A stretch of DNA of 64,000 nucleotides from Owenweeksia sp. (GTDB lineage Bacteria > Bacteroidota > Bacteroidia > Flavobacteriales > Schleiferiaceae). The stretch lies in contig NZNV01000020.1 of assembly GCA_002695025.1 (NCBI GenBank), positions 62,001 through 126,000 on the forward strand, written 5' to 3'. The notes below the pieces were generated by a model that was not told where the DNA came from, made no database searches, and saw nothing but the letters and a program-made list of their open reading frames with translations. Positions 37,102 to 50,479 of the stretch are shown here, in pieces. Position 1 is the stretch's first letter. Each line of letters opens with the position of its first letter. Position numbers and translations under genes: made by a program.

Positions 37102-37554
37102 TTAATAGGTATCCTCAATTTGAATGGTCTCATTATTCAGTTGCAGCTGGTTACCGCTTTGTTTCCCCAATAGCAAATTTCCCAGGGGTGAGGCCGGGGA
37201 TAATACAAAGCAATCCTTATCCATAATGGATAAGCTGCCAAATGCTATGGCAATAAGGTAATAGCCTTTATTGGTTTTAACGAGGCTACCCATACGAATA
37301 TTGACCGAAGGGCTTGAAAAATCGATCCTTTTCAGGGTTTGCTGTTGCTGGATGATCTGGTTAAGCCTGCCACTCAGTTTTTCCAGTTCCAGGTGGGTCA
37401 TGGCACGTCCCGTCTCGTACTTATCACCTGCGGTACTTTTGGTGTCGGATAAGAGGGCTTCCTTCAGCTGTTGCACTTCAGCTTCCAACTCACCTCTTCG
37501 CATGTCTATCGTATTCTGCAGAAGTTGCACCACTTCTTTTTTAAACCCTTCCAT
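37102..37554 (-). CDS. GreA/GreB-like protein A
   Basis: A 150-residue protein with an N-terminal helical hairpin (about 1-75; VVQLLQNTIDMRRGELEAEV, tip DTKSTAGDKYETG) and a C-terminal FKBP-like domain ending SPASPLGNLLLGKQSGNQLQLNN, the organisation of transcript-cleavage factors GreA/GreB. The tip keeps Asp and Glu, which in GreA reach into the RNA polymerase active site. It is shorter in the C-terminal domain than GreA, so action on RNA polymerase is inferred. ATG 37554 is preferred; a longer frame to 37674 runs into the divergent paralogue. Its mate at 37635 is transcribed in the opposite direction. Confidence 0.72.
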   Translation of the reverse strand: MEGFKKEVVQLLQNTIDMRRGELEAEVQQLKEALLSDTKSTAGDKYETGRAMTHLELEKLSGRLNQIIQQQQTLKRIDFSSPSVNIRMGSLVKTNKGYYLIAIAFGSLSIMDKDCFVLSPASPLGNLLLGKQSGNQLQLNNETIQIEDTY

Positions 37555-37634
37555 GGTACCAAAGTAATCATTGCCCGCGGGCTTTAAACAATCATCCCTG
37601 TACTCAGTTGGCTTAAGAAATAAAAGATGTAAAA

Positions 37635-39748
<2,114 letters not shown>

Positions 39749-40341: not shown

Positions 40342-40767
40342 TTACGGATTGATATGCACATCTGTGGGCGACACAAAAATAACGGTATAAATACCGCACT
40401 GGGCATCGCAATGTTTACCCTGGGCTCTCATGGGGTAAGGTGCACAAGGATCATTGGGAGCGGAAACATTTACCGGGGTAAAAGCAGCAGGGCAAGGCTG
40501 ACAATTGGCATCAGCGGCTATTACCTGTACATTACACCATACCAGGTGAGGCGCGCCACAAGGAGGAATAGGTACAGTGGCACCAGGGGCTACACATACA
40601 ATAGCCGTGGAGCAGGGGTTGATGCATCCGGGTTCAACGGCTACCGCTCTCACCAGGTAGTGACAACTGGTGTTGTTGGTAATGTTTACGGGGGCAGGTT
40701 GAGCAAAGGCCACCACACCGGCCAGCATAAAGGCCAGGGTAAGAAGAGTTTTCTTTACTTGGTTCAT
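40342..40767 (-). CDS. Secreted Cys-rich protein, copy 1
   Basis: A 141-residue exported protein. The signal peptide starts MNQVKKTLLTLAFMLAG and ends VAFAQ. The mature part contains a dozen cysteines in a fixed pattern: NITNNTSCHYLVRAVAVEPGC, PC, VCVAPG, PPCG, VWCNVQV, ANCQPCP, NDPCAPYP and HCDAQCG. It is a clear paralogue of the gene at 40976, and the even number of cysteines suggests disulfide bonding outside the cell. ATG 40767 is chosen because the signal peptide begins there. No family or function recognised. Confidence 0.78.
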   Translation of the reverse strand: MNQVKKTLLTLAFMLAGVVAFAQPAPVNITNNTSCHYLVRAVAVEPGCINPCSTAIVCVAPGATVPIPPCGAPHLVWCNVQVIAADANCQPCPAAFTPVNVSAPNDPCAPYPMRAQGKHCDAQCGIYTVIFVSPTDVHINP

Positions 40768-40975
40768 GATAATTGGTTTTAAAAGATTAAACAAAAAACA
40801 GGATCAACACCGTGTTGGTCCATATCGTAGAGCCCGGCTTGGATAGAGATCCGTTTTAAATAACCGGGAAGGGTCCTTAACAGCAGGGTAATTACCTGTA
40901 TTCCTGTTGTTCCGGGAAGTAGCCCGGCTTACATAATGGTAAAGAGCCTGTGAAGATCAGGAGAGTACTTTAACT

Positions 40976-41398
40976 TTAAGGGTTGATGACCAGGTTGTAA
41001 GGGTCGTTGTAATGCACTTGAAAATGTTCACACTCACAATGTAAGCCACTGTCATCATGTGGGTACGATGAACACGGGTCTCCTGGTGCAGCTACGGTAA
41101 CAGGTGGAAAATCATCACCCGGGCAAGGCTGACAATTTCCATCGGCTGGAGTGACTCTTACATTACACCAAACGTATGCATCAATGAAGGAACAGGGATT
41201 GATTTGTACCGTAGAGTTGGGTGGCACACATAAGGTACTGGTAATACAAGGGCTTTGGCAATCATTTTGAATGGCCACCGCCCTGACCAGGAAATAGCAA
41301 TCGGTATTATTGTGTACGTCTATGGGCGCGCTTTGGGCAATTGCAATCCCATAGCTTGCAAATAAAAGAAGAGTGAATAGGGGTTTACAGATTTTCAT
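40976..41398 (-). CDS. Secreted Cys-rich protein, copy 2
   Basis: A 140-residue exported paralogue of the downstream gene. The signal peptide starts MKICKPLFTLLLFAS and ends IAIAQ; the mature part repeats the same cysteine frame: DVHNNTDCYFLVRAVAIQNDC, PC, LCVPPN, NPCS, VWCNVRV, GNCQPCP, GDPCSSYP and HCECEHF. Both end in the sequence INP. The 208-bp gap to copy 1 contains no obvious terminator, so the two may be co-transcribed. Function unknown. Confidence 0.78.
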   Translation of the reverse strand: MKICKPLFTLLLFASYGIAIAQSAPIDVHNNTDCYFLVRAVAIQNDCQSPCITSTLCVPPNSTVQINPCSFIDAYVWCNVRVTPADGNCQPCPGDDFPPVTVAAPGDPCSSYPHDDSGLHCECEHFQVHYNDPYNLVINP

Positions 41399-41649
41399 GA
41401 TTCTTGGATTAAGTAAGAGTAGTAAGATTTTATAAATGGACATATCAACAATGGCAAAATGTGGGTCATAAATTCATATTTACCAACATGATAACAACAA
41501 ACATCTCTACCTTAAAAGAAAGAGAGTGATAATGTCAAAAAGGCATTATAGATCAGATATCAGAATATTACAATACTATGCAAGAACAAATAAACAGGTT
41601 AAGGGCACGTGCTATTTGTTATTAGGTGCGGTCTCTTAGGGAAGAAATG

Positions 41650-41915: not shown

Positions 41916-43055
41916 TTGAAGCGGTTTAAATCTAAAGAAAAATGTATAATTATAGGCGGAGGTTTAGCGGGATTAATTAGTAGTATAGACCTTAAGCAGA
42001 GAGGGTATGAAGTTGAGCTTATCGAAAAAAGAAGATATCCCTTTCACCGGGTATGTGGAGAATTCATCTCTAATGAAGTAAGGCCCTACCTGTTTTCTTT
42101 GGGCATATTTCCTCATGAGATCAATTATGTGAATATTGACCAATTTATCTTAAGCTCCGAAACGGGCCGTTTTGCCCAATGCCGTATGCAGATGGGAGGG
42201 TTGGGAATAAGCCGCTATTCCCTGGATCATTTCCTATATACCAAGGCCCTTCAAAACGGAGTCCTTTTTACCGAAGCCACGGTAGAAGAAGTAGTTTTTG
42301 AAGATTCGCATTTTAAGGTTCGCCTGGCCAATTCCGAAGAAAGGCAAGCGGCCCTGGTGATAGGGGCTTTTGGTAAGCGCTCTGCACTGGACAAACGCCT
42401 TAACAGGGCCTTTATGAAAGAGCGTTCGGCTTATATGGGCATTAAATGGCATATGTATGCCGAGCTTCCGGCAAATACCGTTGCTCTTCATCATTTCCGG
42501 GGAGGTTATGCCGGACTGTCAAGAGTGGAGGAGGGAAAGGTTAATTTCTGCTACCTGACCACGGGTGACGTTTTTCGCCAGTATCGGGATATTGATGATA
42601 TGGAAGCCGGTTTATTGCGCAAAAACCCTCATCTGGATGATTTCCTTTCCTCTGCCACGCGTGCTTTTGAGAAGCCTGAAGTAATCAGCCAGGTGAGTTT
42701 TGCTGCCAAAGCAGCCGTAGAGGAACATATCCTGATGTGTGGGGATGCGGCCGGGCTGATACACCCTCTGTGCGGTAACGGTATGGCCATGGCTATTCAC
42801 AGTGCTATGCTTGCCTGTAGTGAAGCCGATCGGTTCTTAAGCGGTAAAGTTTCGCGCCTGGAAATGGAACGGGCCTATTCGCGGCAATGGAAAAAGGCCT
42901 TTCACACCCGTCTCACCTTTGGTAAATATGCCCAAAAACTGATGGAGTCGCCCCCATTGTTTGCAGGAGCAATTCGCCTGGCTACTGCGTCTCCTTACTT
43001 GCTTAAAAAAGCTGTAGGTTTATCCCATGGCAAGCCTTTACTTCAGAGAGCGTAG
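41916..43055 (+). CDS. FAD-dependent oxidoreductase/monooxygenase of the polyketide locus
   Basis: A 379-residue flavoprotein of the geranylgeranyl-reductase/aromatic-hydroxylase type: CIIIGGGLAGLISSIDLKQRG is the FAD beta-alpha-beta motif, then PFHRVCGEFISNEV, and the second FAD motif LMCGDAAGLIHPLCGNGMAM. In the Streptomyces srs operon a flavoprotein hydroxylase (SrsC) oxidises alkylresorcinols; by position this is the equivalent candidate. The start is TTG at 41916 with AAGAAGG just upstream; no ATG is suitable. It overlaps the methyltransferase gene by 29 bp, indicating translational coupling. Confidence 0.88.
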   Translation: MKRFKSKEKCIIIGGGLAGLISSIDLKQRGYEVELIEKRRYPFHRVCGEFISNEVRPYLFSLGIFPHEINYVNIDQFILSSETGRFAQCRMQMGGLGISRYSLDHFLYTKALQNGVLFTEATVEEVVFEDSHFKVRLANSEERQAALVIGAFGKRSALDKRLNRAFMKERSAYMGIKWHMYAELPANTVALHHFRGGYAGLSRVEEGKVNFCYLTTGDVFRQYRDIDDMEAGLLRKNPHLDDFLSSATRAFEKPEVISQVSFAAKAAVEEHILMCGDAAGLIHPLCGNGMAMAIHSAMLACSEADRFLSGKVSRLEMERAYSRQWKKAFHTRLTFGKYAQKLMESPPLFAGAIRLATASPYLLKKAVGLSHGKPLLQRA

Positions 43056-43740
43056 TTCGGAAAAAGAGATCCTGGATGATTTTAACCTGAAGGATAACGA
43101 CCTATCCCAAAACCTGAAGGAACTGGAGCGGGTCAATACACTTTTAGGAGGGTATGCTCCGGTGCTGGCAATGCTGGAACGTATAAAACCCGAATTGCAG
43201 AAAAGGCCCCTGGTACGTATAACGGATGTGGGTTGTGGGGGAGGTGACGTATTGCGCAGGGTACACCACTGGTGCCAAAAAAACAGGATAAACGCCAGGC
43301 TTATCGGCCTGGATGGCAATCTGCATGTGGTAGAACTGGCCCGCGAATTTTCCCATACGTACTCTGGTATAGATTGGCAAGTAGTGAACGTTTTTTCACC
43401 GGAATTCGGGGATCATACTGCGGACGTATTCATGTTCAATTTGTTTCTGCATCATTTTCAGGAGGAGGAGATCGTAGCCCTTTTAAAAAAATGCCGCACA
43501 GGTTGTAGGTTTTTGATCATCAATGATCTGCAGCGCAGCAGGCTGGCCTACCAGCTTTTCCGGCTGGCTTCGCGGGTGTTTCGGTTTTCCTATATCAGCA
43601 GGCATGATGGTAAACTTTCCATCCGTAAAAGTTTTACTAAAGGTGACTGGGTCCGTATGCTGCAGGAAGCCGGCATCAGCCGTTACCGTATAAAATGGCA
43701 ATGGGCTTTCCGTTACAGCGTGCTGATCACTTTTAGCTAA
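43027..43740 (+). CDS. Class I SAM-dependent methyltransferase
   Basis: A 237-residue methyltransferase. TDVGCGGGDVLRR is the SAM-binding motif I, LIGLDGNLHVVELAREF motif II, and FMFNLFLHHFQEEEI the post-II strand. The C-terminal part (from about 165) is helical and basic and may bind a hydrophobic substrate. It starts inside the FAD enzyme gene and ends five bases before the type III PKS gene, so it belongs to the same operon; O- or C-methylation of the polyketide product is the probable role, as for SrsB. Confidence 0.88.
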   Translation: MASLYFRERSSEKEILDDFNLKDNDLSQNLKELERVNTLLGGYAPVLAMLERIKPELQKRPLVRITDVGCGGGDVLRRVHHWCQKNRINARLIGLDGNLHVVELAREFSHTYSGIDWQVVNVFSPEFGDHTADVFMFNLFLHHFQEEEIVALLKKCRTGCRFLIINDLQRSRLAYQLFRLASRVFRFSYISRHDGKLSIRKSFTKGDWVRMLQEAGISRYRIKWQWAFRYSVLITFS

Positions 43741-43745
43741 ACCCC

Positions 43746-44804
43746 ATGAAACACACCAAGATACTCACTACCGCCAAAGCCTTGCCTCCACATTGCCGCT
43801 CTACCACTGAGATACTGCCTTTTGTGGAAGCCTGGATGGAAGGGCAGGAAAAACGTTTTCAGGAGAAAGTACTGCGCATCTTTAAATATGCCCAGGTAGA
43901 TAAGCGCTATTCCATCATGTCTCCGGAAGAGGTATTTACCCGTACTTCCTTTGAAGAAAAAAATGCACTGTACAGTGAACGAATGACGGACCTGGCCGAA
44001 GAGGCGCTCACCAAAGCTCTTGATCAGGCCGGTTTACAGCCACACCAGATAGACTATATCATTACTACCAGTTGTACGGGTATCATGATCCCTTCGGTGG
44101 ATGCCTATCTCATTAACCGTTTAAAAATGCGGCAGGATATCATACGCCTGCCGGTAACCGAAATGGGTTGTGCTGGTGGTACTTCGGCCCTCATTTATGC
44201 CCATAATCTCTTACAGGCCCAAGCAGGAAAGCGGGCGGCCGTCATTGCCCTGGAATCACCTACCAGTACCTTTCAACACACCGATTTTTCAATGACCAAC
44301 GTGGTTAGTGCCGCTATTTTTGGTGACGGAGTGGCGTGTACCCTCTTAGGGCCTGATGACGAAAAGGTACTGCCCGTAATCCGGGATGCCGGCATGTACC
44401 ATTTTTTTGATGAACTTCACATGATGGGTTTTAAGCTCACCAATAATGGTTTGCAGATGGTTCTGGACCCTTCCGTGCCCGAGAAAATTGAAGAGCATTT
44501 TGAAAGCATTCTTTTCCCTTTTCTGCATAGGAACAACCTGCAAATTGAGGACGTGGAGCATTTTATTTTTCATCCGGGAGGCAAAAAGATCGTAAAGATG
44601 GTGGAAGAGTTGCTCCACACCCTGGGAAAGAATATTGACGTTACCCGTGAGGTATTAAGGTTATATGGGAATATGTCCAGCGCAACGGTATTGTACGTGC
44701 TGGAAGAATACCTCCATCGGTCTATTCCCAAAGGAGATAAAGGCCTTATGCTCAGTTTTGGTCCCGGCTTTTCTGCCCAGCGTTTATTGCTGGAATGGCA
44801 ATGA
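43746..44804 (+). CDS. Type III polyketide synthase
   Basis: A 352-residue chalcone-synthase-family enzyme. The catalytic triad is visible: cysteine in TEMGCAGGTSALIYA, histidine in HFIFHPGGKKIVKM, asparagine in LYGNMSSATVLYVLEEYL. FGDGVACTLLG and the C-terminal GLMLSFGPGFSAQRLL are also typical. It condenses an acyl starter with malonyl-CoA units and cyclises the product to resorcinols, pyrones or phloroglucinols. It is in an operon with an FAD enzyme and a methyltransferase, as in srs-type phenolic-lipid pathways, and is followed downstream by a dedicated acyl-carrier set. The starter unit cannot be predicted by eye. Confidence 0.95.
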   Translation: MKHTKILTTAKALPPHCRSTTEILPFVEAWMEGQEKRFQEKVLRIFKYAQVDKRYSIMSPEEVFTRTSFEEKNALYSERMTDLAEEALTKALDQAGLQPHQIDYIITTSCTGIMIPSVDAYLINRLKMRQDIIRLPVTEMGCAGGTSALIYAHNLLQAQAGKRAAVIALESPTSTFQHTDFSMTNVVSAAIFGDGVACTLLGPDDEKVLPVIRDAGMYHFFDELHMMGFKLTNNGLQMVLDPSVPEKIEEHFESILFPFLHRNNLQIEDVEHFIFHPGGKKIVKMVEELLHTLGKNIDVTREVLRLYGNMSSATVLYVLEEYLHRSIPKGDKGLMLSFGPGFSAQRLLLEWQ

Positions 44805-44844
44805 CTTACCCATTTTTGCAAATTATGTGTAAGAATAATCTGTA

Positions 44845-44852
44845 TATCTTTG
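44845..44852 (+). promoter_or_regulatory. -7 box upstream of the STAS-like/kinase pair
   Basis: TATCTTTG, a perfect TAnnTTTG box. A possible TTTG -33 element lies 25 bases upstream (44816-44819), slightly far. It gives the signalling pair, and perhaps the downstream genes, a promoter separate from the PKS operon, with a leader of about 110 bases. Confidence 0.45.
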
Positions 44853-44969
44853 TAAGATGAATGGAATTTTGATTAAGTTTAGTTAATTCATTAGTTCAAT
44901 AAGTACAGTCAGTTAAAGTCTTACGGTAGGCAAGGCTTTAATTAGAGATAACTGGTTTAAGCCAATACA

Positions 44970-45374
44970 ATGACGAATAAGGAATCTGGTTCCGGGGAAA
45001 TCCGCGTGGACGATGCTCCGGGCGGCCCAATAATCATGAAGGATCAGATAATACGAATAAAGGTTGATCAGAAAAGTGAATATACTCTGGATAACGCCCG
45101 TGCTGTAGTAAGTATAGTGGACCGGTTACGTGAAGGATTGCGTCTACCCTTATTAGTAGATTTTTCTGATGTCCATTTTTTAAGCCGCCCGGTGAGGGAG
45201 TATTATTCTTCGGAGGAAGTATCGCAAAAAGTAAGTTCCTTAGCTATAATCAGTTCTTCAACCATCGGAAAGGTAATAGGCAATTTTTTTGTGGGTATAA
45301 ACCGGCCTCTTGTACCTACCCGTTTTATGACCAATGAAGAGGAGGCTATAGCCTGGTTGAAGGAATACTTATAA
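44970..45374 (+). CDS. STAS/SpoIIAA-like small protein
   Basis: A 134-residue protein. The core IIRIKVDQKSEYTLDNARAV, LPLLVDFSDVHFLSRPVREYY, LAIISSSTIGKVIGNFFVG and TNEEEAIAWLKEYL has the strand-helix order of SpoIIAA/STAS-like proteins common in Bacteroidota beside PAS-domain kinases. It lacks the usual DSSG phosphorylation motif. It ends six bases before the histidine kinase gene, so the two are co-translated or co-transcribed; a role in tuning the kinase is inferred. Confidence 0.65.
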   Translation: MTNKESGSGEIRVDDAPGGPIIMKDQIIRIKVDQKSEYTLDNARAVVSIVDRLREGLRLPLLVDFSDVHFLSRPVREYYSSEEVSQKVSSLAIISSSTIGKVIGNFFVGINRPLVPTRFMTNEEEAIAWLKEYL

Positions 45375-45380
45375 TTCAGC

Positions 45381-47636
45381 ATGAACTCTGACGACACAGC
45401 CAATCAGCAGCTGGACCATATCCTGAATATCCTTCTGGAGTATGGTAAGGGTAATTTTTCGGTACGCACCACCATACCGGATTCAGATGATACCCTAAAC
45501 GCTGTTTTGGTTGGTTTGAATATGTTGGGAGAGGAGCTGGAATATTACCGGCAGGAAGACAGGCGTAAAAATCAATTGCTACGGGATGTCTTTGAGAATA
45601 CGGATGAAATCATCTATGCCCTGGATATTGAAGGCACTGACCTGAGCAATGCCCGTTTTCTTTTTAGTAGCAATCAGGTTTCCAGATTATTGGGCTATGA
45701 AGAAGAAGACCTTAAGAAAGGTTTTGGGGTTTGGAGTAAGGCCATACATCCGCAGGATTTTAATACGTATCGCAACCATATTCATGAAGCCCTTAAAGGA
45801 AAAGCGGTTTCCTGTGATTACCGTATGCGCAAAAAGAACAACGGTGAATATATATGGGTGTCGGACCGCCTGTGGTCACAGGATGCAGGTAACGGAAGGA
45901 CCCATATTTATGGAGCTGCACGCGATATAACCCAACGGAAAAACCAGGAAGAGTATACCCGGAGAACCCTTGCCGAGATAAAAACCATTGATTCCATATA
46001 CCAGGCTGCGGTAAAAGGTGGTGATACCCTTGAAATACTACACCTGCTAAGTGATGGTATCAAAAAACTGGTGGATGTTACAGCTTCACGGGTGTTTACG
46101 TATAATCCTAAGACAGACACACTTGAAATGAAGGCGCAAAGGCTGTCTGCTAAACACCAGGAGGGCCTGATGATGTTTCTGGGTAAGGTTAGCGTCAGTA
46201 GTATAGTACCCATTGTAGAGCCTGGCAGTAGGTTTCATAATATCCTGGAAAAGCGTAAAATGGTTTTTGCCACCGACCCGAAGGAGATTATAGAGCTGAT
46301 GAAGGACCATACCAAGGTGCCCGCTTTCAGGGCCGTGGCCGCTCCGGCCCGTAAACTTCTTGGCATTAAAACATTTTCTGTACTCCCAATTGCCAACAAG
46401 GAGCGGGTTTTTGGGATGCTTACCTGTGTGGCAAACCGGGAGTTGAGCTTACCGGAGCAGGGCCTGGTGGTGCGGTTGGTGAATCACGCAGCCTTTACGC
46501 TGGCGCGCATAAGAGCAGACGAGGAACTGAGGGAACAAAAAAAATTCTCCGAAAGCATTTTGAACACCTTACCGGTTGATATAGCTGTGTTTGATAAAGA
46601 TCACCGGTACCGCTTTGTAAATCCTAAAGCCATTCAGAATCAGGAAATTCGTGATTGGATCATTGGTAAGGATGATTTTGAATACGTGGCTAAACGCGGG
46701 CATCCTAAAAGCCTGGCCCAAAAGCGCAGAGAACACTTTGTAAAAGCGGTGCATTCAGGCAAACCGCATGGGTGGATCGATGAATACCAAAAAGAGGACG
46801 GTAGCAAGCAATATATCATGCGTGAGTTATACCCGTACTTTGATGAGAACAATGAGCTACAAAGCGTATTTGGCCACGGGGTGGATATTACCAGTCTTAA
46901 GAATGCTGAACTTGAGAAGGAACAGCTGCTGAAGGAACTGGGGCAGCGGGTAAATGAACTGATGCAGTTCAACTCTGTGGTATCCCATCACTTAAGAGCC
47001 CCGGTAGCTACTTTAATGGGACTTTGCAATCTTATAGAAATGAAGCCCTCTGAGGAGGATGTCCATGAAATTATGGAGGGCGTAAAAGTCACTTCAGAGG
47101 CTTTGGACCATGTGCTGCGTGACCTGAATATGGTGTTGGCTACCAAATCAAACATTAACCAGAGAGTTGATAAAATAGATCTGCGGGAGATTGTACGATT
47201 GGTGCGCAATGAGCTTGAACTACAAATAAGCAGTGCCAATGCCACAGTAAAACTGGTAGACAACCCAGACCTGAAACCCTTTTATTCTATTTCCAGTTAT
47301 CTACAGAGTATTATCTATATCCTGGTTTCCAACGCTATAAAATACCGGAGGCAGGATGTAGATCCGGTAGTTAAGGTTGTAGCTCACCAGAAGGAAAGCG
47401 AGGTAGAGATAGAGGTGATTGATAATGGTTTAGGTATTGACCTGAAACGTTATGGTGATGAGATCTTTGGCTTTTACAAGCGTTTCCACAATCATGTGCA
47501 GGGGCGTGGCCTGGGCTTATACCTGGCTAAGGCACAGGTAGAAACCCTTGGTGGACAGATACGGGTACAGAGCAACCTGGGCACAGGTAGTATGTTCAGT
47601 ATTGTGCTCCCGAACCAGGCTGGTGAAAAGGTTTGA
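45381..47636 (+). CDS. PAS-GAF-PAS sensor histidine kinase
   Basis: A 751-residue soluble sensor kinase with no membrane segment. Residues about 55-185 are a PAS/PAC domain (VFENTDEIIYALDIEG ... DYRMRKKNNGEYIWVSDRLW), about 190-385 a GAF domain, about 390-510 a second PAS domain (ESILNTLPVDIAVFDKDHRY). The dimerisation helix carries SHHLRAPVATLMGL with the likely phospho-acceptor His536. The ATPase domain has SNAIKYR, DNGLGID and GRGLGLYLAK. No response regulator is adjacent, so the target is elsewhere or the output is indirect. It lies between the PKS genes and the fatty-acid-like genes, with only 48 bp to the next gene. Confidence 0.92.
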   Translation: MNSDDTANQQLDHILNILLEYGKGNFSVRTTIPDSDDTLNAVLVGLNMLGEELEYYRQEDRRKNQLLRDVFENTDEIIYALDIEGTDLSNARFLFSSNQVSRLLGYEEEDLKKGFGVWSKAIHPQDFNTYRNHIHEALKGKAVSCDYRMRKKNNGEYIWVSDRLWSQDAGNGRTHIYGAARDITQRKNQEEYTRRTLAEIKTIDSIYQAAVKGGDTLEILHLLSDGIKKLVDVTASRVFTYNPKTDTLEMKAQRLSAKHQEGLMMFLGKVSVSSIVPIVEPGSRFHNILEKRKMVFATDPKEIIELMKDHTKVPAFRAVAAPARKLLGIKTFSVLPIANKERVFGMLTCVANRELSLPEQGLVVRLVNHAAFTLARIRADEELREQKKFSESILNTLPVDIAVFDKDHRYRFVNPKAIQNQEIRDWIIGKDDFEYVAKRGHPKSLAQKRREHFVKAVHSGKPHGWIDEYQKEDGSKQYIMRELYPYFDENNELQSVFGHGVDITSLKNAELEKEQLLKELGQRVNELMQFNSVVSHHLRAPVATLMGLCNLIEMKPSEEDVHEIMEGVKVTSEALDHVLRDLNMVLATKSNINQRVDKIDLREIVRLVRNELELQISSANATVKLVDNPDLKPFYSISSYLQSIIYILVSNAIKYRRQDVDPVVKVVAHQKESEVEIEVIDNGLGIDLKRYGDEIFGFYKRFHNHVQGRGLGLYLAKAQVETLGGQIRVQSNLGTGSMFSIVLPNQAGEKV

Positions 47637-47684
47637 TATCCTTCAAATTTTCGCGTTCTTGCCTGGAAATAATTCCCTGATTTT

Positions 47685-48509
47685 ATGAAGCCTCTAGCTA
47701 TCATTTTAGGAGCCAGCAGCGGCATGGGTATGGCCACAGCTTTAAAACTGGCCCGTGAGGGGTTTAACCTTTGTGTGTTGTACCGGGAGCGGAGGCAGCA
47801 GGCCCGGGAAGCGGAAGAGGCTTTTGACCGGTTAAGGTCTCAGGGCTGCAAGATACTATCGTACAACAAAGATGCTTTGGATGCCCAAAGCAGGGAGGAG
47901 GTGATGCAACAATTGCTGGAGCAGGGGGTGAAAGTATCGCTCTTGCTGCATTCCATTGCCCGTGGAAACCTCAAACTGATGGTGCCCTACCGTTCAGGTG
48001 ACCATCATTCCAAAACTTCAGCAGAACTTGAGCGTTTATTTGCAGATGAAACGCATTTTTTACAAGGTGAGGATTTCCAGCTTACCACCGAGGCTATGGC
48101 CCTGAGCTTTTACCATTGGGTAAAAGCCCTGCACGCTAAAAACCTGTTTGAAAAGGAGGCCATGACACTGGCACTTACCAGTGAGGGTAGTAAAAAAGCC
48201 TGGCGTAATTATGCCGCAGTATCGGTGGCCAAGGCCGCCCTGGAAGCCGTGGCCCGTTCCATAGCCCTTGAATTTGCTCCTTATGGCATACGCTGTAATA
48301 TCCTTCAACCGGGTGTAACCGATACCCGCGCATTGCACTATATAAAAGGTTATCCATTGATCAGGGAGCAGAGCCTGGACCGCAATCCTTTTGGGCGCCT
48401 TACAACCCCGGAGGATGTGGCGGATGTAGTATACCTGATGAGCCGCAAGGAGGCACAGTGGATCAACGGGGCCATTATTCCGGTTGACGGAGGAGAATCT
48501 ATAGCCTGA
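47685..48509 (+). CDS. Enoyl-ACP reductase-like SDR
   Basis: A 274-residue SDR. The nucleotide motif is GASSGMGMATALKLA, followed by LLLHSIARG, which resembles the VHSIA segment of FabI. The catalytic motif is Y-x6-K (YAAVSVAK), the spacing of enoyl-ACP reductases FabI/FabL rather than the Y-x3-K of FabG. The C-terminus INGAIIPVDGG is standard. It therefore probably reduces the enoyl intermediate in a dedicated acyl-chain pathway. Its stop overlaps the start of the dehydratase gene. Confidence 0.85.
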   Translation: MKPLAIILGASSGMGMATALKLAREGFNLCVLYRERRQQAREAEEAFDRLRSQGCKILSYNKDALDAQSREEVMQQLLEQGVKVSLLLHSIARGNLKLMVPYRSGDHHSKTSAELERLFADETHFLQGEDFQLTTEAMALSFYHWVKALHAKNLFEKEAMTLALTSEGSKKAWRNYAAVSVAKAALEAVARSIALEFAPYGIRCNILQPGVTDTRALHYIKGYPLIREQSLDRNPFGRLTTPEDVADVVYLMSRKEAQWINGAIIPVDGGESIA

Positions 48510-48949
48510 TGACGGACTTTACACACATATTGGATCAATTACCTTACGATCAGCCTTTTCTTTTTGTAGACAAGCTGCATACCCTTACGGAAGAAGGGGC
48601 GGAGGGAGCATATACCTTTACGCAAAACGCTGATTTTTACCGTGGCCACTTTAAGGATAACCCGATAACCCCGGGTGTGATCCTTACGGAGTGTATGGCA
48701 CAGATAGGACTGGTGTGCCTGGGTTTGTTCCTGCTGGAGCAAGCCGGCCTGAAACCTTCACCACTACGCATAGCATTCACGGAGTCTCACGTGAATTTCC
48801 ATAAACCGGTATTTCCCGGAGAAACCGTGCGGGTGCGATCCGAAAAGGTCTATTGGCGTATGGGGAAGTTAAAGTGCAGGGTGATCATGTATAATGCACG
48901 GGAAGAAAAAGTATGCAGCGGTGAATTAAGCGGGATAATACGATCATGA
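48509..48949 (+). CDS. FabZ-like 3-hydroxyacyl-ACP dehydratase
   Basis: A 146-residue hotdog protein. YRGHFKDNPITPGVILTECM holds the catalytic histidine and, 14 residues later, the glutamate, in the pattern HF..P..PGV...E of FabZ. PYDQPFLFVDKL at the N-terminus also matches. It should dehydrate 3-hydroxyacyl-ACP. It overlaps both neighbours by a few bases (TGATG-type and ATGA junctions), so it is translationally coupled in the ER-DH-KS-ACP set. Confidence 0.9.
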   Translation: MTDFTHILDQLPYDQPFLFVDKLHTLTEEGAEGAYTFTQNADFYRGHFKDNPITPGVILTECMAQIGLVCLGLFLLEQAGLKPSPLRIAFTESHVNFHKPVFPGETVRVRSEKVYWRMGKLKCRVIMYNAREEKVCSGELSGIIRS

Positions 48950-50244
48950 AACAAAGAGTGGTTATTACCGGATTAGGCGTGGTGGCACCTGGTGGTGTGG
49001 GAGTTACCGAGTTCAGGGAGGCCCTGGAGCAGGGACGTTCGGGGATTGAACATCTCGCGGAACTGGAAGAACTGGACTTTCGCTGCCAGTTGGGTGGTGT
49101 ACCCAGGCTCACCGATGAACTGTTGAAAAGCAACTTTTCAGAACTGGAACGTAAGCGCCTTACCGCCAAGGGGGTGATCTACGGCATTATAGCCGGCCTG
49201 GAAGCCTGGAAAGATGCCGGGCTGCCGTTTCCGGCCAGCACCGAGGCTGAACCTCATTGGGATTACGGCTGTATTTTCGGTACCGGCATGAGTGGCGTGA
49301 ATACGCTGCGTGATGCCATCTACAAAACTGATGACAAGAAGGTGCGAAAACTGGGTACTACGGTGGTAGAGCAAACCATGCCCAGTGGTATCAGCGCCTT
49401 TTTAGGTGGCCGCTTAGGTTTGGGTAATTGGGTTACCTCCAATTCATCGGCCTGTAGTACGGGTACTGAGTCGGTGATCATGGCTTTTGAGCGTATCCGG
49501 GATGGCAAAGCCTCTATACTACTGGCGGGTAGTTGCGATGCCGATGGTCCGCACGTATGGGGAGGCTTTGATTCCATGCGGGTATTGACCTATCGCCATA
49601 ATGAGGAACCTGAAAAAGCTTCCAGGCCCATGAGCGCTACCGCATCCGGCTTTGTGCCGGGTAGCGGAGGAGGAGCATTGGTTCTGGAAAGCCTGGACTC
49701 TGCCCTGCAAAGGGGAGCGTCTATTTACGGGGAGGTGATAGGCGGTTATACCAATTCAGGGGGACAACGCGGTACCGGTACTATGACCGCTCCTAACTCC
49801 CAGGGTACCCAGCGTTGTATACAAGGGGCCTTGCAGGACGCTGGCATTACTTCCCAGGATATTGATCTGATCTCAGGACATCTTACCTCTACCATGGGCG
49901 ATGTGCTGGAGGTGAGGAACTGGAGTGAAGCCTTGCACCGTTCCGGTACCGGTTTCCCCATGATCAACTCGGTAAAATCCATTACCGGGCATTGCCTGAG
50001 TGCGGCCGGGTCTATTGAGTGTGTGGCGGCCCTGTTGCAATTGAAGCATCAGTTTGTACATGCTTCCCTGAACTGTGAAGACCTGCATCCTGAGATTGCT
50101 GCCTGCATTGACGAAAACCGGGTGGTACGAAAGACGGAATCCCATAAAATCAATATTATTGCGAAATCCAGCTTTGGCTTTGGCGATGTAAACAGTTGTG
50201 TCCTATTTAAAAAATATCCTACTCATGAACCGAACGGAAATTGA
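48946..50244 (+). CDS. Beta-ketoacyl-ACP synthase (FabF-like)
   Basis: A 432-residue condensing enzyme. The nucleophile is in SNSSACSTGTESVI, the first histidine in ISGHLTSTMGDV (normally AHGTST.GD), the second in SVKSITGHCLSAAGSIE, and IIAKSSFGFGDVNS is the C-terminal loop. All three catalytic residues are present but the first His motif is unusual (SGHLTSTMGD). It elongates an acyl chain, probably with the acyl carrier protein encoded next, whose start lies 20 bp inside this gene. A specialised rather than housekeeping FabF is likely. Confidence 0.9.
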   Translation: MKQRVVITGLGVVAPGGVGVTEFREALEQGRSGIEHLAELEELDFRCQLGGVPRLTDELLKSNFSELERKRLTAKGVIYGIIAGLEAWKDAGLPFPASTEAEPHWDYGCIFGTGMSGVNTLRDAIYKTDDKKVRKLGTTVVEQTMPSGISAFLGGRLGLGNWVTSNSSACSTGTESVIMAFERIRDGKASILLAGSCDADGPHVWGGFDSMRVLTYRHNEEPEKASRPMSATASGFVPGSGGGALVLESLDSALQRGASIYGEVIGGYTNSGGQRGTGTMTAPNSQGTQRCIQGALQDAGITSQDIDLISGHLTSTMGDVLEVRNWSEALHRSGTGFPMINSVKSITGHCLSAAGSIECVAALLQLKHQFVHASLNCEDLHPEIAACIDENRVVRKTESHKINIIAKSSFGFGDVNSCVLFKKYPTHEPNGN

Positions 50245-50479
50245 AGAAAAACTGAAAGAGATCATACGCCCCTATGTACAAAATGAAGAGGCCTTTCAGA
50301 ATATGACGGCTGATACGGATATGCTACGGGATCTACAGATCAATTCTGCGCACCTGGTAGACATCATCCTGGATATGGAGGAAGAGTTTGATATTGAGAT
50401 TGACGATACTACGGCTGAGAAAATGCTGACCGTTGGCGAGGCTATTGATATTACCGAAAAGCTTAGCCAGCAGGAATAA
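50225..50479 (+). CDS. Dedicated acyl carrier protein
   Basis: An 84-residue acidic four-helix protein. The phosphopantetheine attachment serine is in LQINSAHLVDIILDMEEEF, where the usual DSLDxVE reads NSAHLVD. The frame extends to an ATG at 50198, but the ATG at 50225 gives the normal ACP length and start. It overlaps the ketosynthase gene and closes the operon; it probably holds the growing chain made by the adjacent enzymes and may deliver it to the type III PKS. Confidence 0.88.
   Translation: MNRTEIEEKLKEIIRPYVQNEEAFQNMTADTDMLRDLQINSAHLVDIILDMEEEFDIEIDDTTAEKMLTVGEAIDITEKLSQQE

Follow-up and report, generated by a model that had tools for sequence, protein, structure and literature searches.

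A conserved Bacteroidota gene cluster pairs a type III polyketide synthase with a discrete acyl carrier module and probably makes a phenolic lipid

The window (the whole stretch of 64,000 nucleotides analysed here, from a 4.46-Mb Bacteroidota genome assigned to Owenweeksia sp.) contains a group of seven open reading frames between positions 41916 and 50479, all on the + strand. In order, they encode an FAD-dependent oxidoreductase, a SAM-dependent methyltransferase (MT), a type III polyketide synthase (PKS), an enoyl-ACP reductase (ER), a dehydratase (DH), a ketosynthase (KS), and an acyl carrier protein (ACP). An earlier note had listed these genes from the sequence; all were recovered at those positions, and each family was supported by Pfam and NCBIfam profile searches. 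Most of the proteins score well under the NCBIfam equivalog cut-offs of primary fatty-acid enzymes, as is expected for specialised paralogs. The first two genes overlap by 29 bp, and the MT gene is followed by the PKS gene after a gap of 5 bp. For the last four genes, the earlier note gave overlaps of 3 to 20 bp, which is close to the 1 bp (ER/DH), 4 bp (DH/KS), and 20 or 47 bp (KS/ACP, depending on the ACP start codon) that we measured. Matches to the Bacteroidetes TAnnTTTG promoter were no commoner than chance in a scan of the locus.

The FAD enzyme (41916..43055, with an uncertain TTG start codon) belongs to the aromatic hydroxylase/GG-reductase superfamily. It matches PF01494 with 36 bits, above the cut-off, while its best NCBIfam matches, the GG-reductase subfamily and QhpG, stay below theirs. 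The structure closest to its AlphaFold model (pLDDT 86) in a Foldseek search was 3-hydroxybenzoate 6-hydroxylase (4bk1), a likeness that fits hydroxylation of a ring to a hydroquinone, within a fold class that is broad; a probable ring hydroxylase is therefore how we annotate it. A halogenase was also considered and rejected: the halogenase profile matches were weak, inspection by eye showed no WxWxIP motif, and a hydroxylase gave the best structural match. The MT (43027..43740) is a Methyltransf_25 protein (PF13649, 41 bits) of the PRK06202-like type (NF004851, 135 bits versus a cut-off of 243), for which no solved structure related by sequence was found. The PKS (43746..44804) is recognized by PF00195 and PF02797 with 73.7 and 78 bits (cut-off 27), and its C142-H276-N309 triad is invariant in 75 sequences. 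Its best NCBIfam match, DpgA (NF042429), does not pass the cut-off (141.7 versus 425). Among solved structures, a sequence comparison places Pks11 nearest, while the predicted model is closest in fold to CylI and Pks11. Pks11 is an acyl-primed alkylpyrone maker and CylI a resorcinol maker, and with its nearest solved relatives split in this way, the ring formed here could be either a pyrone or a resorcinol.

The second group of genes encodes discrete proteins of the type II fatty-acid kind. The ER (47685..48509) is a short-chain dehydrogenase/reductase of the FabL/FabI type (PF13561, 147 bits), whose best NCBIfam match, FabL (NF005975), is not passed (133.9 versus 328). The Y-x6-K motif reported for it earlier is present as Y176-x6-K183, with no variation at either the tyrosine or the lysine among 54 sequences. 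The FabZ-like DH (48509..48949; PF07977, 52 bits) carries H47 and E61, invariant in 75 sequences, and the FabF-like KS (48946..50244; PF00109/PF02801) has the catalytic residues C170, H312, and H349, invariant in relatives. The sole other FabF-type KS in this genome, presumed to be the primary FabF, is only 31% identical to the cluster KS, which is thus not the primary enzyme. The discrete ACP starts at 50225 (ATG) or 50198 (GTG) and ends at 50479; it scores 47.9 bits against TIGR00517, under the equivalog cut-off of 70.45, and weakly against PF00550. Its phosphopantetheine serine, S50 when numbered from the GTG start, is invariant in 70 sequences.

Between the two groups, positions 44970-47636 are filled by genes for a DUF7793/SpoIIAA-like protein (44970..45374; PF25056, 86.5 bits) and a PAS-HisKA-HATPase sensor histidine kinase recognized by its domain profiles (45381..47636), both on the + strand. 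The separation of the two halves by 3 kb on the same strand, as described in the earlier note, is real in the window (2.9 kb) but absent from relatives, and in a genome of the same genus, the PKS and ER genes are only 18 bp apart. The pair was found at no other related locus examined. No ortholog of the kinase was detected in five genomes of the same genus or family, and elsewhere the best match was 32% identical. A repeat scan of the inserted stretch gave short, imperfect two-copy matches only and no clear insertion scar. The gap is a private insertion that lies outside the system, and a conserved role for the pair is ruled out, as no other genome has it at this locus. The uninterrupted arrangement in relatives, including the 18-bp gap within the genus, indicates that both halves form one ancestral operon-like unit.

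A scan of a GTDB species collection yielded 34 loci, all of them in Bacteroidota (Flavobacteriia, Chitinophaga, and Pedobacter). Chitinophaga arvensicola and Flavobacterium gillisiae are among the carriers of the cluster. When 396 evenly sampled Bacteroidota genomes were searched, 34 contained a member of the PKS clade (>460 bits; the next best score was 210), and the KS (>484 bits) was present in exactly the same 34, adjoining the PKS on the same strand. The two halves are therefore not found apart in most relatives, the outcome that would have spoken against the functional link proposed earlier. Adding further loci from the family to which the window belongs brought the analysis to 74 distinct PKS loci. 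The genes, where present, are always colinear as FAD-MT-PKS-(ER)-DH-KS-ACP, an order without exception across the 74 loci and constant far beyond chance, and most gene pairs overlap or sit at most 60 bp apart. Quick trees of the PKS, KS, FAD enzyme, and MT had 15 to 19 of 34 splits in common and no strongly supported conflict. Around 20 other Bacteroidota type III PKSs, the only homolog of the FAD enzyme, the MT, or the module was one unlinked SDR. Plasmid-borne relatives of the FAD enzyme in Bernardetia and Hymenobacter lie in different gene contexts.

The KS was absent at four PKS loci, three of which are contigs ending in or just past ER or DH. The true exception is L015, from a metagenome bin, which has FAD-MT-PKS-ER and no DH-KS-ACP within the next 9 kb. 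The ER is missing more often, at 24 of the 74 loci, and a search of 14 ER-less genomes found no similar ER anywhere in them; these come mostly from one large genus and a Pedobacter-like genus. Flavobacterium species among the named loci likewise lack it. The earlier note had treated ER-DH-KS-ACP as one set; the order is kept, but the cluster can do without the ER, and lineages without it either borrow the primary enoyl reductase or make unsaturated tails.

The conserved set holds discrete type II proteins only, with no type I fatty-acid synthase (FAS) adjoining the PKS, and it includes no ketoreductase, loading enzyme, thioesterase, or acyl-CoA ligase, in agreement with the earlier observation that a ketoreductase and loading enzymes are missing. 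It has a single KS, whereas aryl polyene and flexirubin clusters are recognized by more than one ketosynthase together with aryl starter loading.

One further gene does accompany the cluster in most relatives: at 62 of the 74 loci, a 4'-phosphopantetheinyl transferase (PPTase; PF01648) lies downstream of the ACP. Such an activating enzyme right beside a dedicated ACP is an argument for a functional carrier. In the genus of the window, the locus has no PPTase, and none was found in the window's genome by the PF01648 model or a protein query, which leaves activation of the ACP in this genome unexplained. Taken together, the co-occurrence, fixed order, congruent trees, and clustered PPTase strongly support a functional link between the two halves.

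The best pointer to what the module does comes from its occurrence elsewhere. A related KS (48-51% identical) was found in just five more of the 396 genomes. In two of these (L073 and L074), an ER-DH-KS-ACP-PPTase set is divergent from genes for DarB (634.8 and 614.7 bits, NCBIfam cut-off 550) and a DarA-like protein, the latter named by resemblance alone, with no match in the profile library. In the other three, a sister (ER)-DH-KS-ACP set lies beside GNAT-like and glycosyltransferase-like genes, with neither ring former nearby. DarB and type III PKSs represent distinct routes to a resorcinol-type ring. That a single acyl module accompanies both of them points, if indirectly, to acyl supply for ring formers, and the sister module beside DarB ties the module to resorcinol rings. 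The module is portable, and looks like a portable acyl-ACP supplier. Rooting of the KS tree was poor, with the primary FabF too distant, and the tree does not decide which of the two pairings is older. More tentatively, and at somewhat less than even odds, such a module (KS-ACP-DH, an optional ER, and its own PPTase) might pass chains straight from its private ACP to its partner in resorcinol-ring formation, be that a type III PKS or DarAB, and a lineage that gained or lost the ER would thereby change from one kind of tail to the other, saturated or polyene.

In a thin sampling of other phyla, homologs were also found outside Bacteroidota. Plasmids of Sphingomonadaceae (L121 and L123) carry ACP-KS-PKS-(MT)-FAD operons without DH or ER, with identities to the window's proteins of 27-31% (FAD), 29-36% (MT), 26-28% (PKS), and 27-28% (KS). 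This KS is less like the cluster KS than the primary FabF of the window's genome is (31%). In Methylobacterium, a PKS-MT-FAD trio, homologous at 26-30%, occurs without KS or ACP. From these comparisons, the trio for ring tailoring appears to be ancient, and, judging from two cases, it seems to have acquired a discrete KS and ACP on more than one occasion, with the Sphingomonadaceae operons looking like a separate recruitment. The combination of KS, ACP, PKS, MT, and FAD enzyme is hence not unique to this cluster, as had been supposed, although the Sphingomonadaceae version uses a different KS. No product of those operons was found in the literature searched, which was limited to open-access papers.

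Several characterized systems resemble parts of the cluster. The earlier note had compared it with the srs operon and the Azotobacter system and held that it differs from both; this stands for those two, but KS and ACP genes beside a type III PKS also occur in Sphingomonadaceae. The trio is more like the hidABC, Planctomycetota, and alphaproteobacterial trios than like srs. In gene content, it matches the hidABC operon (hierridin B, cyanobacteria) and the three-gene alkylresorcinol operon of Planctomycetota, which likewise combine an MT and an oxidoreductase with a type III PKS and yield alkylresorcinols with a methylated or hydroxylated ring (PMC8086630, PMC10896814). Their gene order differs (MT-oxidoreductase-PKS rather than FAD-MT-PKS), and they are described without the dedicated KS, DH, ER, ACP, or PPTase present here. 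The Planctomycetota trio makes alkylresorcinols, and when its MT was co-expressed with the oxidoreductase, the product was methylated once (PMC10896814). In the Azotobacter ars system, as summarized in PMC6274091, a type I FAS feeds ACP-bound chains to ArsB and ArsC (Miyanaga 2008). Both cases have clustered fatty-acid machinery supplying a type III PKS, but ars uses a multidomain type I FAS, whereas the proteins here are discrete, and ketoreduction and malonyl loading would be borrowed. Cylindrocyclophane biosynthesis (CylB, CylD-CylH, and CylI) likewise proceeds from a free ACP through chain extension to a resorcinol formed by a type III PKS, CylI, which accepts an ACP-bound chain and is closest in fold to the PKS model here; its starter, however, is a fatty acid that is loaded and then lengthened by type I PKSs (PMC8086630). 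Germicidin synthase and SCO7671 also accept acyl-ACP starters (PMC6274091). In the DarAB dialkylresorcinol loci, represented next to the sister module in L073 and L074, DarB and DarA form the ring in place of a type III PKS. The feeding of type III PKSs by acyl-ACP is already known as a principle; the open-access literature searched yielded no example of a conserved type II module made of discrete proteins and equipped with a PPTase of its own.

On this evidence, the locus is probably a phenolic-lipid cluster, for an alkylresorcinol, alkylpyrone, or alkylquinone, with its own acyl-supply line. The KS would condense malonyl units onto a primer on the cluster's own ACP, while primary metabolism would lend FabG for ketoreduction and FabD for malonyl loading. 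The FabZ-like DH would dehydrate the intermediates and the ER, where present, would reduce them to give a saturated chain; in lineages without ER, the chain would stay unsaturated or be reduced by a borrowed primary enoyl reductase. The acyl-ACP would then load C142 of the PKS, for which there is precedent in other organisms, followed by malonyl extension and cyclisation. Finally, the MT would methylate and the FAD enzyme hydroxylate the ring, so that the end product would be a methylated lipid of the hydroquinone or quinone type. In most relatives, the clustered PPTase would activate the ACP. The identity of the parts, their catalytic residues, the co-inheritance, and the portability of the module are observed; the product, the chain length, and a direct hand-over from ACP to PKS rather than through acyl-CoA are inferred. 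Counting against this pathway are L015 without DH-KS-ACP, the loci without ER, the missing PPTase in the window's genome, and the three module sets without a ring former.

Type III PKSs commonly take CoA starters, and descriptions of the hid-type and Planctomycetota trios mention no KS or ACP of their own (PMC8086630, PMC10896814). The PKS could accordingly use acyl-CoA or primary acyl-ACP, while the KS, DH, ER, and ACP make an unusual fatty acid that, after its release, reaches the PKS only indirectly. We consider this improbable, as the conserved set has neither a thioesterase nor an acyl-CoA ligase and the module is strictly co-inherited with the PKS, one to one. The flow might also run in reverse, with the PKS making an aromatic starter (e.g., dihydroxyphenyl-acyl) that is loaded onto the ACP and extended by KS, DH, and ER, much as an aryl starter is lengthened by a KS-DH-ACP set in the making of aryl polyenes. 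DpgA, the best NCBIfam match of the PKS, does make an aromatic acyl-CoA, but the score of 141.7 is far under the cut-off of 425, the conserved set has no CoA ligase or loading enzyme, the sister module sits in DarB loci, where the ring former consumes acyl chains, and the nearest solved PKSs are acyl-primed, making this direction unlikely as well. That two unrelated operons became neighbours by accident, split by a two-gene regulator, as the 2.9-kb break in the window might suggest, is refuted by the absence of the break in relatives (18 bp in the same genus) and the presence of both halves together in 34 of 34 genomes.

The core idea of the earlier note, a discrete acyl module serving a type III PKS, thus survives the test set for its refutation and gains independent support. 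Type III PKS clusters make up about 9% of predicted clusters in Flavobacteriaceae, for which no product is given in the available part of that survey (PMC7440613), and none was found for the Bacteroidota cluster in the open-access literature searched. If the model of an ACP-fed PKS is true, a common class of Bacteroidota lipids awaits identification, and the cluster would offer a simple, soluble system for the docking of a discrete ACP to a type III PKS. The lineages with and without ER, in turn, form a natural experiment on tail saturation.

The acyl module of the cluster (ER-DH-KS-ACP) also has sister modules at other loci. In L073 and L074, ER-DH-KS-ACP-PPTase genes, the last encoding a phosphopantetheinyl transferase, are divergent from those for DarB and a DarA-like protein. 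Each may possibly represent a dialkylresorcinol locus carrying its own acyl module. ABC-transporter-like genes lie close to this region. In 3 other loci (L075, L076, and L077), the (ER)-DH-KS-ACP set is accompanied by a gene whose product is GNAT-like and by one for a membrane protein resembling glycosyltransferases, and no ring former was found near the set; these sets may belong to a different lipid pathway. A gene resembling serine palmitoyltransferase is situated approximately 5 kb from the set in L075.

Outside Bacteroidota, plasmids of Novosphingobium and Sphingobium (L121, L123, and L124) carry operons combining ACP-KS-type III PKS genes with methyltransferase and FAD enzyme genes. No product of such operons was found in the literature searched.

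Genes for small GreA/GreB C-terminal-like proteins closely precede the FAD enzyme gene in L018 and about 20 related loci, and lie 4 to 5 kb upstream of it in the window (37102-37674, minus strand; 37635-38099, plus strand); they may be linked to it or be neighbours by chance. A tandem pair of minus-strand genes (40342-40794 and 40976-41443), oriented opposite to the cluster and lying shortly upstream of it, encodes small, cysteine-rich, apparently secreted paralogs (46.7% identity across 152 residues).

Neither a PF01648 search nor a PPTase protein query detected a PPTase in the whole genomes of the window's own organism and a congener (G000 and G408). Every bacterium is expected to need this enzyme, and that of these genomes is probably a divergent member of the family.
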